From Thermodesulfovibrio aggregans (GTDB lineage: Bacteria; Nitrospirota; Thermodesulfovibrionia; Thermodesulfovibrionales; Thermodesulfovibrionaceae), in assembly GCF_001514535.1 (NCBI RefSeq), contig NZ_BCNO01000001.1, positions 1,135,012 through 1,199,011 of the forward strand: a stretch of 64,000 nucleotides of DNA, in the 5' to 3' direction. The notes beneath the pieces were generated by a model. That model saw only the letters and a program-made list of their open reading frames with translations. It did no database searches and was not told where the DNA came from. How positions within the stretch are numbered: the stretch's first letter is position 1; each line of letters begins with the position of its first letter. Positions 17,023 through 49,155 of this stretch are shown here, one piece after another. The position numbers and the translations under genes are program-made.

Positions 17023-20000
17023 ATGGAGCTTACAAGACGAGATTTTTTGAAAATCTCCACTGGTGCCCTGCTCCTTAGCTCGCTGGGACTCAATCTTGAA
17101 CCTGCAAAAGCCTATGCAGCTGAGCTTAGAACAAAGGGTGCCAAGGAGACAACCACAATCTGTCCCTACTGTTCAGTTGGTTGCAGCATTATTGTTTCTG
17201 TTAAGGATGGCAAGGTTGTTAACACAGAAGGCGATCCTGACAGTCCCATCAATGAAGGAGCACTCTGTCCCAAAGGTGCTTCAATTTATCAGATAGCAAA
17301 CAATCCTTACAGATTGAAAGAACCCCTTTATCGTGCACCTGGAGCAACTGAGTGGAAAAAAATATCATGGGAAGAGGCACTCAATAAGATTGCCAGATTA
17401 GTTAAGAAAACAAGAGACAAATATTTTATCACAAAGAATGAAAAGGGGCAGGTTGTAAACAGAGTAGATGCTATTGCCCATGTTGGTTCAGCAGCCCTTG
17501 ACAATGAGGAATGTTATCTTCTTCAAAAATTAATGCGTTCATGGGGGCTAGTCTATATTGAACATCAAGCCCGTATATGACACTCCCCTACTGTAGCGGC
17601 TCTGGCAGAGTCGTTTGGTAGAGGAGCAATGACCAATCAGTATCAAGATCTTAAAAACGCAGATGTAATCTTAGTAATGGGTGGTAATCCAGCAGAAAAC
17701 CATCCTATAGCAATGAAATGGATAATGAGAGCGAAGGAACAGAGAGGTGCAAAGCTTGTAGTTGTTGATCCAAAGTTTACAAGAACAGCTTCTAAAGCAG
17801 ATCTTTATGTTCCGATTCGTTCTGGAACAGACATTGTATTTTTAGGTGGATTAGTAAAGTACATCATTGATAATAATCTATACTTTAAGGATTATGTGGT
17901 AAATTATACTGATGCTTCATATCTTGTTGATCCTAACTTCAAGTTACCTGATGACCTTGATGGAGTATTTTCTGGCTATGATGAGAAAAAGAGAGCCTAT
18001 GATAAATCAACATGGAAATTCCAGCTTGATGAAAACGGTCTTCCTAAGAAAGATCCAACCCTTCAGAATCCGAACTGCGTATTTCAGCTTTTAAAGAAGC
18101 ACTACTCAAGATATACAATTGATACGGTCTCAAAAATAACAGGTGCACCGAAAGATAAAATTGAGGAATGTTATAAAATTCTTGCATCAACAGGTAAACC
18201 AGACAGAGTTATGACAGAATGTTATGCAATGGGATGGACCCAGCACACAGTTGGAGCTCAGAACATCAGAACAATGGCAATAATTCAGATGCTTCTTGGT
18301 AATGTAGGAATGGCTGGTGGAGGAATCAATGCTCTCAGAGGTGAGTCAAATGTTCAGGGCTCAACAGACTATGGACTTCTTTTCCATATTCTAACAGGAT
18401 ACAATCCAACACCTGTTGCAAGTGATGTAGACCTTAAAACATACATTGAAAAATACACTCCTAAAACAAAAGAGCCAAAGAGTGTTAACTGGTGGTCTAA
18501 CAGACCAAAGTATATTGTAAGTTATCTTAAGGCAATGTATGGTGATAAAGCCACAAAAGAAAATGATTTCTGTTACAGTTATTTACCTAAGAGAGATGAT
18601 GGGCAGAACTGTTCCTGGTTAATGATTTTTGACCAGATGTATAAAGGTAAAATTAAAGGATTCTTTGCATGGGGACAGAATCCAGCGTGCTCAGGTGCAA
18701 ACTCAAATAAAACCAGAAAAGCTCTTGCCAAACTTGAATGGCTTGTCTGTGTAAACCTCTGGGATAATGAAACAGCTTCATTCTGGCGTGGTCCTGGTAT
18801 GGATCCAAAGAAGATTAAGACAGAAGTATTCATGTTACCCTGTGCATCTTCAGTAGAAAAAGAAGGAAGCATTACTAACTCTGGAAGAATTGCTCAGTGG
18901 AGATATAAAGCAGTTGAGCCATATGGAAAAACCATGCCCGATGCAGAAATTATGAATGAGCTTTACTGGAGAGTTAAAAAACTATATGAAAAAGAAAAGG
19001 GAGCATTCCCTGAACCAATAATTAATCTTTCATGGGACTATGGAGAGAAGGATAAAAACGGTAAGATTAAGCATATAGATATACATAAGGTCGCCAAAGA
19101 GATAAATGGATATTTCACAACAGACATACCGGAACATCCTGTTGACAAAAAATCATACAAAAAAGGTCAACAGGTACCAAGTTTCGTTTTACTGAGAGAT
19201 GATGGAAGCACAGCCTGTGGAAACTGGCTGTATTCAGGTAGCTACACAGATGCAGGCAACATGATGGCAAGAAGAGGAAAGGAAGACCCAACAGGACTTG
19301 GGCTCTATCCAAACTGGGCATGGTGCTGGCCTGTAAACAGAAGAATACTTTACAATCGTGCAAGTGTAGATCCACAGGGTAATCCATGGGATCCAAAGAG
19401 AGCTGTTATTAAATGGGATGCAGCAAACAAAAAATGGGTTGGAGATGTACCTGACGGACCAGCTCCTCCACTTGCAATGGAAGGTGGAAAACTTCCATTT
19501 ATAATGAAGCCTCTTGGAGTTGGTGCAATATTTGGTGCAGGAATGGCAGATGGACCATTCCCAACACACTATGAGCCACTTGAGTGTCCATTCCAGGAAA
19601 ATCCACTTTACAAGAAACACAGAATAAATCCAACAGTAAAGCTTTTTGATACAGATGCCGATGCATTTGTATTCTGTGATAACAGATATCCATATGTTGG
19701 AACAACATACAGAGTAACAGAGCACTGGCAGACAGGAGTTATGACAAGACATACAGATTGGTTAAGAGAACTCGAACCGCAGATTTTCGCTGAAATTGAC
19801 CCTGTACTTGCAAAAGAAAAGGGAATAAAGAGTGGAGATAAAGTAATTGTCTCTTCAGCAAGAGGAAAACTATGGGCTATTGCTATAGTTACACCAAGAC
19901 TGCAGCCAATGAAAGTTTTAGGACAGACAATCCACATTGTTGGTCTGCCATGGCATTATGGCTGGAGATTCCCTGAAGATGGTTCTGGTGGAGACAGTGC

Positions 20001-20085
20001 AAATCTACTTACTCCGTCAATTGGTGACCCAAATACCATGATACCTGAGTCCAAGGCATTCATGGTAAACATAGAGAAGGCATAG
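17023..20085 (+). CDS. fdhA: selenocysteine formate dehydrogenase, catalytic subunit (in-frame UGA)
   Basis: A 1020-residue exported molybdenum/tungsten formate dehydrogenase of the FdnG type. The twin-arginine signal is TRRDFLKISTGALLLSS. An N-terminal [4Fe-4S] site (CPYCSVGC, CPKG), the bis-pterin enzyme body and a C-terminal dinucleotide-binding domain follow. A TGA at 17578-17580 interrupts the frame at residue 186 in the context HQAR-I-(U)-HSPTVAAL, exactly the selenocysteine site of the family, and a hairpin follows it, so this is one gene rather than two fragments. GGAGGAGG precedes the ATG. fdhB follows after 10 bp. The enzyme oxidises formate (or reduces CO2) in the periplasm. Confidence 0.96.
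17578..17621 (+). promoter_or_regulatory. UGA selenocysteine codon and SECIS-like hairpin in fdhA
   Basis: UGA at 17578-17580, followed by a hairpin with upper stem 17595-17603/17607-17615 (CGGCTCT-GGC-AGAGTCG core, one G-U) and lower stem CTAC/GTAG (17588-17591/17618-17621). Distance and size match a bacterial SECIS read by SelB. The apical loop is GGC rather than the more usual GU-containing loop. Confidence 0.8.
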
Positions 20086-20095
20086 GAGGTGAAAA

Positions 20096-20839
20096 ATGGC
20101 ACGTAAGGGACTGTTAATAACACCAGATATATGCATAGGATGCAGAGCCTGTCAGGTTGCATGCAAGGAGTGGAATCAACTTCCTGCAACAAAGACAAAG
20201 AATAATGGAACCCATGAAAATCCGCCAGACCTTGATGCAAATAACTTCAATAGAATTAGATTCATTGAACACGCTGATGCAAAGGGAGTTCGCTGGCTTT
20301 TTGTAAGCCAAAGATGCATGCACTGTGGTGAGCCTGCATGTGTTCAGATATGTCCTGTTGGAGCATTGATTAAGGACAAAGAGACAGGTATAGTTTACTA
20401 TGACAAGAACAAGTGCATAGCCTGTCATGCCTGTCGTTCTGCCTGCCCCTTTGATATTCCAAGATATGATCAGGGTGGTAAGGGTAAGATTTCAAAGTGT
20501 CATCTCTGTATAGACAGAGTTAGGGCTGGACTTACACCTGCCTGTGCAAAGACCTGTCCAACAGGAGCAATTAAATTTGGAGACAGAGACGCATTGATAA
20601 AGGAAGCAAAGGCAAAGGGATTCAAGCTTTATGGAGAGACAGATCTTGGAGGATTGGGAGTAGTGTTTGCTCTTAAGGATTCACCAAAGGTATACCAGCT
20701 TACCGAGAATCCTCGTGTATCCGAGTCTGTTGCATTCTGGGGCTCTGTATTGAGAACACTTGTAGGAAGAAGTGGTTCAACAACACCATCCTTTATCAAA
20801 TATCTTGCTCAGAAATCTACAGAGGAAGTAAAGAAATAG
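20096..20839 (+). CDS. fdhB: formate dehydrogenase, iron-sulfur subunit
   Basis: A 247-residue ferredoxin-like protein with four cysteine clusters: CIGCRACQVACKEW, CMHCGEPACVQICPVG, CIACHACRSACPF and CHLCIDRVRAGLTPACAKTCP, so four [4Fe-4S] clusters. It passes electrons from FdhA. The C-terminus (about 200-247) has no convincing membrane helix and no gamma (cytochrome b) gene follows, so the pair resembles the soluble periplasmic FdhAB type, carried out by the FdhA Tat signal. AGGAGG precedes the ATG. Confidence 0.92.
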   Translation: MARKGLLITPDICIGCRACQVACKEWNQLPATKTKNNGTHENPPDLDANNFNRIRFIEHADAKGVRWLFVSQRCMHCGEPACVQICPVGALIKDKETGIVYYDKNKCIACHACRSACPFDIPRYDQGGKGKISKCHLCIDRVRAGLTPACAKTCPTGAIKFGDRDALIKEAKAKGFKLYGETDLGGLGVVFALKDSPKVYQLTENPRVSESVAFWGSVLRTLVGRSGSTTPSFIKYLAQKSTEEVKK

Positions 20840-47184: not shown

Positions 47185-47480
47185 AACTATTTTTTATACC
47201 TTAAATATAATCAATTTTTCAAGTTCTTTTCATTTGAAATCTGAGATTTACAATCGCTTTTTACAACACGGTCAATAATAATAATAGAGCACGGGTTTCC
47301 TTTACCAGGAGTTGTAGTTTTAATCCCTGAATGGTCTTAAAGTCAGAAATTTACTGAAAAAGTAAAGGAATAAGAAACGTTTTATTAAATTTAAATTGAG
47401 GTGCTATAATATTCCCCTTTTTTTATTGTCAATTTGCAATAATTTGTTATAATTAATGTAACAAACAAAAGGAGACAAAT
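47185..47480. other. 296-bp intergenic region with two tandem promoters
   Basis: No gene is supported here. The left end holds the minus-strand TATAAA (47198-47193) of mltD with TTGAAA 18 bp upstream. The right end holds the promoters of the selenoprotein gene: TGC-TATAAT (47402-47410) and TTGTCA-16 bp-TATAAT (47426-47453, also TGT-extended). The middle (about 47290-47350) holds a segment that looks like a CRISPR repeat but occurs once. Confidence 0.6.
47426..47453 (+). promoter_or_regulatory. promoter of dsbA-like selenoprotein gene
   Basis: TTGTCA 47426-47431, 16-bp spacer, consensus TATAAT 47448-47453 preceded by TGT (extended -10). A second extended -10, TGC-TATAAT at 47402-47410, lies upstream. 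AAAGGAGA (47468-47475) is the ribosome-binding site for ATG 47481. Confidence 0.75.
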
Positions 47481-48083
47481 ATGAAAACTTTCAAAACCTT
47501 AATTTTTATAATTTTCATCTTATTCTACGTTTTAAGTGCTAATGCAACTGAAAAGAGATATGACATACCTACTGAAAATTCTCCTGTTATTGGAGATAAG
47601 AATGCCCCTGTTACAGTTGTTGAGTTTATTGATTATCAATGACCACACTGCGTAGAGGTCGGTCCGACCATTGAAAGTTTGGTAAAAGAATTTGAAGGAA
47701 AAATAAAACTTGTAATTAAGTTTTTCCCTTATCAATATAGGGATTATGCAAGGATTGCTGCAGAGGCGGCAGTTGAGGCGTGGAAGCAGGGTAAGTTTGC
47801 CGAGATGCACGAATTATTACTAAAGAGATCGCCAAAACTTGACAGAGACTCTTTAATTGAATATGCAAAAGAGTTAAATCTTGATATTGAAAAATTCAAA
47901 AGAGCTATAGACAATCAGGAAGGCTCATCAATTATTGAGAGAGATCTTAAACTTACAAAAGAATTGGATCTTTATGGTACACCCGCCTTTTATATCAATG
48001 GAATTAAAGTTCTTGGAGTCAGAGATGCTGAATACTTCAAAGAAATAATTTTAAAGGAGCTCAAAAATGTTGAGAAAAAGTAG
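47481..48083 (+). CDS. DsbA-family thioredoxin-fold selenoprotein, active site U-P-H-C (in-frame UGA)
   Basis: A 200-residue exported protein. The signal peptide (KTFKTLIFIIFILFYVLSANA) is followed by GDKNAPVTVVEFIDYQ, the DsbA-type lead-in to CPHC. At codon 54 (47640-47642) the first active-site cysteine is TGA, then Pro-His-Cys57. The frame continues with TIESLVKEFEGKIKLVIKFF, a helical insert, and the cis-Pro loop LYGTPAFYINGIKVLG, all intact to the stop, and a SECIS-like hairpin follows the TGA. It is best read as selenocysteine. It would act as a periplasmic thiol oxidase, reductase or peroxide-handling protein. It overlaps the dihaem peroxidase gene by 17 bases. Confidence 0.88.
47640..47673 (+). 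promoter_or_regulatory. UGA selenocysteine codon and SECIS-like hairpin in dsbA-like gene
   Basis: UGA at 47640-47642. Fourteen bases later, GGTCG (47657-47661) and CGACC (47665-47669) pair perfectly around loop GTC; beyond an A-A mismatch three further pairs are possible (47653-47655/47671-47673). The tip GGUC resembles the GU-bearing apical loop of known bacterial SECIS elements. Confidence 0.7.
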
Positions 48084-49155
48084 TACCATAGTTTTTTTAT
48101 CTCTTTTATTCTTTATAAATTTACTGATAACTATTGAAAGCATTGCAGCCGATAAAACTAAAAAAAAGCTTGAGCCTCTACCTCTTCCTCCTATTCCTAA
48201 AAACAATCCGATGACACCTGAGAAAATCGAACTTGGAAAAAAACTTTTCTTTGACCGCAGACTCTCAGGAGATGGAACAACAAGCTGTGCAAGCTGTCAT
48301 GATCCTGAAAAGGCATTTACAGATGCATCAGAAATTTCACTCAGTTATCCAACAACACGAAATTTCAGAAATGCACCAACATTAATAAATGTAGCCTATG
48401 CAAAATATCTTTTCTGGGATGGAAGAGCAAAATCACTGGAAGAACAGGCAGAGTTTCCAATTATGTCTCCCTTTGAAATGAATCAAAATCTTGATTTTGT
48501 TGAGGAAGAGATAAGAGTTGTCCCTGAATACAGAGAGTCTTTTAAGAAAATTTTCGGTAAAGACGTAAATATAAAACTAATAGCACAGGCTATAGCAGCC
48601 TTTGAGAGAACACTTATATCTAAGAATGCTCCCATTGATAGATATCTAAGAGGTGACAAAAACGCATTAAGTGATGAGGCTAAGAAGGGACTTGAGGTAT
48701 TTACAGGAAAGGGCAAATGCATTGAGTGCCACTATGGAGCTTATCTCAGTGATAACAAGTTTCATGCATTACATGTTCCAGAAAATCCAAAGTATGCAAA
48801 TGAGACCAAATTTATTGTAACTCGTAGATATGTAGCTAAGATAAATAAGTATCCAGACTATGTAAATGTTAGAGAGGACTTAGGTAGATATTTTAAAACA
48901 AGGGAAAAGAGAGACTATAAAGCATTCAAAACACCAACTTTAAGAGAAGTTGCAAAAACTGCTCCATACATGCATAACGGTATATTTAAGAGCCTCGATG
49001 AAGTAATTGATTTCTTTAATAAAGGAGGAGGAGAGGGCAACAAAGCGTTGAAGCCTTTAAATTTAACTGATTATGAAAAGAAAGCATTAAAAACTTTTCT
49101 CATAGAGGCTTTATCGGGTGAAGAAATCAAGATTAAACCACCTGATATTCCATAG
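48067..49155 (+). CDS. dihaem cytochrome c peroxidase, CcpA/MauG family
   Basis: A 362-residue exported protein: signal or anchor (TIVFLSLLFFINLLITIESI), first haem site SGDGTTSCASCHDPEKAF, second haem site GKGKCIECHYGAYLSD, and the family segments RNAPTLINVAYAKYLFWDGR and FKTPTLREVAKTAPYMHNG. It reduces hydrogen peroxide with electrons from a small c-type carrier. It overlaps the selenoprotein gene, so the two are very likely co-expressed and may both serve oxidative defence of the periplasm. It is convergent with the cytochrome b genes. Confidence 0.92.
   Translation: MLRKSSTIVFLSLLFFINLLITIESIAADKTKKKLEPLPLPPIPKNNPMTPEKIELGKKLFFDRRLSGDGTTSCASCHDPEKAFTDASEISLSYPTTRNFRNAPTLINVAYAKYLFWDGRAKSLEEQAEFPIMSPFEMNQNLDFVEEEIRVVPEYRESFKKIFGKDVNIKLIAQAIAAFERTLISKNAPIDRYLRGDKNALSDEAKKGLEVFTGKGKCIECHYGAYLSDNKFHALHVPENPKYANETKFIVTRRYVAKINKYPDYVNVREDLGRYFKTREKRDYKAFKTPTLREVAKTAPYMHNGIFKSLDEVIDFFNKGGGEGNKALKPLNLTDYEKKALKTFLIEALSGEEIKIKPPDIP

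Follow-up and report, generated by a model that had tools for sequence, protein, structure and literature searches.

The window analysed here, a stretch of 64,000 nucleotides from Thermodesulfovibrio aggregans, contains a reading frame interrupted by TGA at the first active-site position of a DsbA-type oxidoreductase. Is this codon read as selenocysteine, and what might the resulting enzyme act upon? The frame, termed dsbU (47481..48083; all features lie on the forward strand), encodes 200 amino acids, terminates with TAG, and holds, as a preliminary description had stated, a single internal stop. This is the TGA at 47640..47642, residue 54 in the context Asp-Tyr-Gln-U-Pro-His-Cys. Under the ordinary code the locus offers just a 134-aa ORF with a TTG start at 47679, so gene callers would truncate dsbU, in line with the same description.

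The further elements it listed were located as well. An AGGAG ribosome site precedes the ATG, a hairpin of sequence GGTCG-GTC-CGACC (47657..47669) starts 14 bases after the TGA, and the gene overlaps the following dihaem gene (48067-49155) by 17 bases. Both the resolving cysteine 57 of the UPHC motif (47649..47651) and the Thr167-cisPro168 loop (47979..47984) are invariant. The promoter it had called good corresponds to a promoter-like site ahead of dsbU-mauG at 47426..47453, of the extended −10, sigma-70-like type (TTGTCA-16-TATAAT with TG), which matches 11 of 12 consensus positions and is the top site of the region; such a match is not proof. The claimed signal peptide holds only as a probable one: the hydrophobic N-terminus (47481..47546, with a cut near ANA/T) resembles such a peptide by its sequence and forms a helix at residues 2-20 in the structural model, and the assignment has no signal-peptide predictor behind it.

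Six-frame searches for DsbU covered 149 relatives first and then 396 genomes of the phylum. The phylum-wide search returned 65 matches above 280 bits, the next matches lying below 200 bits. The internal TGA occurs in all 65 of these close homologues; none of them carries Cys at the residue-54 codon, and none shows decay there. TGA likewise occupies the UxHC codon in 53/53 extracted relatives with at least 47% identity, and the protein is conserved on both sides of it (mean column identity of 65% in a 28-sequence alignment). The hairpin bears the marks of a bacterial SECIS element, namely covariation and codon constraint. Across homologues, 96.8% of cells are paired, with 13 double-sided changes spread over three pairs, and none of 500 shuffles did as well on cells paired or on covariation. 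The codons of Gly61 and Pro62, which lie inside the hairpin, are nearly frozen, as GGT in 51/52 (20% elsewhere in the same genes) and CCG in 52/53 (31% elsewhere), respectively.

The source genome also encodes the required machinery, comprising selA, selB (above the family cut-off), selD, and a tRNA-Sec with anticodon TCA. Its selD (L123, G000:C3:243439-244359) contains one in-frame TGA and is probably a selenoprotein itself. A contrast between Sec and Cys forms by presence of Sec machinery was uninformative, with a selB match in 149/149 relatives, 135 of them above the cut-off. On the combined sequence evidence of conservation, SECIS covariation, and Sec machinery, it is virtually certain that UGA is read as Sec and that DsbU is a genuine selenoprotein; selenium in the protein itself remains unmeasured. 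The opposing account, in which the TGA reflects a pseudogene, a read error, or another reading of the codon, can cite nothing except the stop codon itself. It is hardly conceivable in the face of a TGA retained by every one of the 65 homologues within a protein conserved on either side, a covarying hairpin, and complete Sec machinery, and the first two of these rule it out. An exported UPHC oxidoreductase of the DsbA type using Sec, as first suggested, is thus supported, and nothing that would have refuted it (Cys-carrying homologues, absent sel genes, or frame decay) was encountered.

The assignment to the DsbA type draws on homologue conservation, Pfam, and fold. DsbU matches PF13462 (Thioredoxin_4, 94.5 bits) and PF01323 (DSBA, 66.3 bits), both above the gathering score. 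Its AlphaFold model (pLDDT 92.7) displays a DsbA-type fold with the helical insertion and cis-Pro, and lies closest to ScsC and BdbD (Z ~23 over 166-172 residues); the modelled fold is that of DsbA/BdbD/ScsC. With these proteins (PDB 3eu3, 5idr, 3gyk) DsbU shares the fold, the position of CxxC, and the cis-Pro loop, whereas it differs by carrying Sec where they have the first Cys of CxxC, by the absence of a detected DsbB or VKOR in its genome, and by a predicted specific enzyme target.

Selenoproteins of this kind are already known. DsbA-like and DsbG-like UxxC selenoproteins date back to 2005-2006 (PMC1088965, PMC1794560, PMC13188914), and the DsbU subfamily is not singled out in those portions of the three papers that were available. 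The known forms (PF01323 form 1; NF041057; PMC13188914) have in common with DsbU the thioredoxin fold, UxxC, and a SECIS element directly after the UGA. DsbU is set apart by its UPHC motif, its MauG partner, its place in an FDH operon, and the lack of a Cys form among close homologues. The nearest NCBIfam selenoprotein model, NF041057 (Rcas_1661, a DsbG-like selenolipoprotein), scores 73.5 bits, and membership was rejected as far under the curated cut-off of 190. Two more Sec-containing DsbA-like subfamilies occur in the phylum, with UPYC (L110, L111, L112, L246) and UPFC (L114, L117) motifs. Neither FDH nor MauG was found in the available flanks of these Sec paralogues or of Cys homologues outside the phylum; the scan outside the phylum used Cys patterns, so Sec-carrying homologues there were not covered.

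The gene that follows dsbU encodes a mauG-like dihaem c-type cytochrome (CCP_MauG; 48067..49155), with CXXCH at residues 74-78 and 218-222 and a PF03150 match of 188 bits, above cut-off. The two genes stand in this order in 49/50 testable loci and are adjacent in 19/19 further UPHC loci, which extend to further orders and classes within the phylum. Genome-by-genome searches for each protein recover nearly the same set of genomes, and the two proteins are hardly ever found apart. The sole exception among the 50 testable loci is a tandem duplicate of dsbU (G139, L094:5046-6377), in which one copy reads UTHC and both lie downstream of fdhABC without mauG. At another locus (G008, L032:1558-3165) the DsbU frame continues into MauG as one frame of 536 residues, apparently through a gene fusion or an assembly indel.

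The preliminary description had coupled DsbU to a cytochrome c peroxidase. The pairing stands; the peroxidase label is uncertain. In sequence alignment alone, Phe317 of the partner falls on Met297 of Geobacter MacA, which we take to be the ligand of the high-potential haem. At this position 74 dihaem homologues have 66 Phe, 6 Leu, 1 Val, 1 Ala, and no Met. Because of this replacement, the partner may not be a textbook cytochrome c peroxidase. Two CXXCH sites and the CCP_MauG domain are common to it and to dihaem CCPs and MauG/MbnH (PDB 3hq9, 3l4m, 6e1c). It differs from them by Phe317 and by scores under the NCBIfam cut-offs for MauG (TIGR03791, 241.7 vs 443.85) and MbnH (TIGR04039, 231.7 vs 362.85). 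Judged by sequence, it would appear to be an unusual enzyme, neither a typical CCP nor a typical MauG.

A candidate target emerges from gene neighbourhood. The window holds a second UGA-Sec gene, as had been pointed out from the start: fdhA (17023..20085), encoding a twin-arginine formate dehydrogenase with U186, followed by fdhB (20096..20839) for the iron-sulfur subunit of the same enzyme. This fdhA lies 27 kb from dsbU and is the orthologue, at 68% protein identity, of the fdhA in the dsbU operon of relatives. Beyond the genus, 34 loci extend 2.3 kb or more upstream of dsbU, and in 31/34 of them fdhA/fdhB are found just ahead of it; the linkage recurs in 13 genomes of a second set. Two layouts are seen, fdhA-fdhB-fdhC-dsbU-mauG-fdhE and fdhA-fdhB'-(~1.9 kb)-dsbU-mauG. 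In Thermodesulfovibrio, dsbU-mauG is detached from fdhAB and is usually still followed by fdhE. In most lineages the cassette thus has its place within the fdh operon, and it is on account of this arrangement outside the genus that dsbU and fdhA of the window belong to one functional unit, a connection the preliminary description overlooked. The link to formate dehydrogenase is strong, and dedication of DsbU, with its dihaem partner, to this enzyme is likely in our judgement. A search of the open-access literature for a link between Sec-DsbA, FDH, and MauG found nothing relevant; subscription papers were outside its scope. In one genome (G009, L224 / L254) there is an additional fdhA that shares 83-84% identity with the window gene, lacks TGA at the Sec site, and has both switch cysteines discussed below.

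What DsbU does for this enzyme can be conceived in more than one way. It could be an assembly factor like CcmG/ResA that keeps the dihaem CXXCH cysteines, or the cysteines and Sec of FdhA, reduced for cofactor insertion during export. The near-strict pairing with a c-type cytochrome would fit such a role, as would a CcdA-type DsbD_TM protein in the genome and the accessory gene fdhE in the same operon. Yet the same FDH is present in relatives without DsbU, and the tracking of DsbU by Cys855/Cys885 of FdhA, described next, would be left unexplained; we regard assembly as quite improbable.

In D. vulgaris FdhAB, an allosteric disulfide C845-C872 renders the enzyme nearly inactive and oxygen-stable when formed, and active and oxygen-sensitive when reduced, according to the accessible parts of PMC13397495 and PMC11323313. 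Over its whole length the window FdhA can be aligned with that of D. vulgaris (6sdr, 1340 bits), and it is a close homologue of this Desulfovibrio/Nitratidesulfovibrio enzyme, with both cysteines kept: Cys855 (19585..19587) aligns with C845 and Cys885 (19675..19677) with C872. It differs in that dsbU-mauG travels with the enzyme, whereas the D. vulgaris switch accounts, as far as their available text goes, name no dedicated operator. By alignment, then, the window fdhA carries both residues of the FDH allosteric switch, and a change in its activity upon reduction is inferred.

The distribution of these residues was compared across 84 genomes with this FdhA, DsbU-containing ones being counted where the region was present. 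Both cysteines occur in 48/48 FdhA proteins from genomes with DsbU. Of those of the same type without it, 20/32 retain both and 12/32 have lost at least one. Eight of the genomes with a lost switch keep fdhA-fdhB-fdhC-fdhE with exactly dsbU-mauG missing. The contrast also appears within genera: in one, G043 has DsbU and both cysteines and G021, without DsbU, has C/A; in another, G081 and G073 differ likewise, the latter with C/G. In the second genome set, 13/13 DsbU-linked FdhA proteins have both cysteines. Six divergent second FDHs of DsbU-containing genomes, encoded outside the operon, carry T/S or S/A instead of the pair.

A flat scan of FdhA columns ranked C885 41st of 975 (Fisher). That scan included f10, a separate clade that lacks DsbU and keeps both cysteines, and was set aside as dominated by f10 clade differences in favour of a restricted scan and likelihood and parsimony tests. 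Members of f10 (L191, L194, L196, L199, L202, L203, L205, L209, L211, L214-L216) have fdhA-fdhB', mostly with fdhE, without fdhC or DsbU. The restricted scan left out f10 and a divergent outgroup, an exclusion decided after the confounding had been seen. In the main clade, C885 then ranks first of 943 columns for association with DsbU (48/0 vs 7/11, Fisher 3e-8), the next column reaching 2e-4 and C855 being seventh. A likelihood test of correlated evolution between DsbU and the switch cysteines gave p=9e-6 without f10 and p=2e-6 with it. Strict parsimony, a conservative count in which the two switch columns did not enter the tree and the outgroup was set aside, placed five cysteine losses, 5/5 on branches lacking DsbU (p=0.013), with C885 joint first of 576 columns, tied with its neighbour R888. 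Phylogenetic independence amounts to only about five events. Across these alignments, the presence of DsbU goes together with that of the FdhA cysteines corresponding to the allosteric disulfide.

The main rival to an action of DsbU on the switch is shared ecology. Under this explanation, DsbU-MauG would be a general periplasmic oxidative-defence pair, lost together with the FDH switch where oxygen is rare, without direct contact between DsbU and FdhA. The dihaem partner does belong to a peroxidase family, the switch guards FDH against O2 (PMC13397495, in its available part), and the disappearance of the cysteines along with dsbU and mauG is consistent with a vanished oxygen problem. However, there is no need for a general defence pair to be housed within the fdh operon, as it is at most loci in several families and classes, and of 943 columns it is the two switch cysteines on which the signal centres. 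We consider this explanation unlikely, if less so than assembly.

The hypothesis we put forward instead is that DsbU-MauG acts on the switch disulfide of FdhA, a proposal without biochemistry whose chances of being right or wrong appear about equal. DsbU would be a periplasmic thioredoxin-fold selenoenzyme with the active site U54-P-H-C57, forming with its co-translated dihaem cytochrome a cassette dedicated to the periplasmic selenocysteine formate dehydrogenase. The twin-arginine leader of FdhA implies that FdhA, DsbU, and the dihaem protein should all lie outside the inner membrane. There, DsbU would exchange electrons with the FdhA surface disulfide (C845-C872 in D. vulgaris, C855-C885 here), and by reducing it convert the oxygen-safe resting form into the active one. 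Its electrons would come from the CcdA-type membrane protein, and the dihaem protein would remove peroxide. The reverse is also possible, with oxidation passing from peroxide through MauG and DsbU to FDH and the enzyme locked for protection. Reduction is slightly preferred because the source genome has a CcdA/DsbD_TM protein and no DsbB or VKOR detectable at E 0.001. This combination speaks for reduction, or for an oxidising role of the dihaem partner, rather than for the classical DsbA-DsbB pathway; the direction remains undetermined.

DsbU is not required for the disulfide. The fdh loci of D. vulgaris presumably lack DsbU although the disulfide is kept, and the f10 family retains it likewise without DsbU. 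Seven main-clade genomes without DsbU, some of them incomplete, still have both cysteines. A bolder extension, in which a selenocysteine thiol-disulfide enzyme and a dihaem enzyme form a dedicated module of two proteins that writes and erases the allosteric disulfide of the periplasmic FDH when peroxide is sensed, placing one selenoenzyme under the control of another, is offered tentatively, as a possibility that may well prove wrong.

Work on CO2 reduction includes the study of metal-dependent formate dehydrogenases, whose oxygen-protecting disulfide switch has been described in vitro; the accounts of that switch, in the parts available, name no natural operator. Its operon context and its correlated loss with the switch cysteines make dsbU-mauG a concrete candidate for this operator. 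With DsbU, the selenoproteins also gain a subfamily in which Sec is fixed throughout the phylum and whose members standard annotation will truncate.
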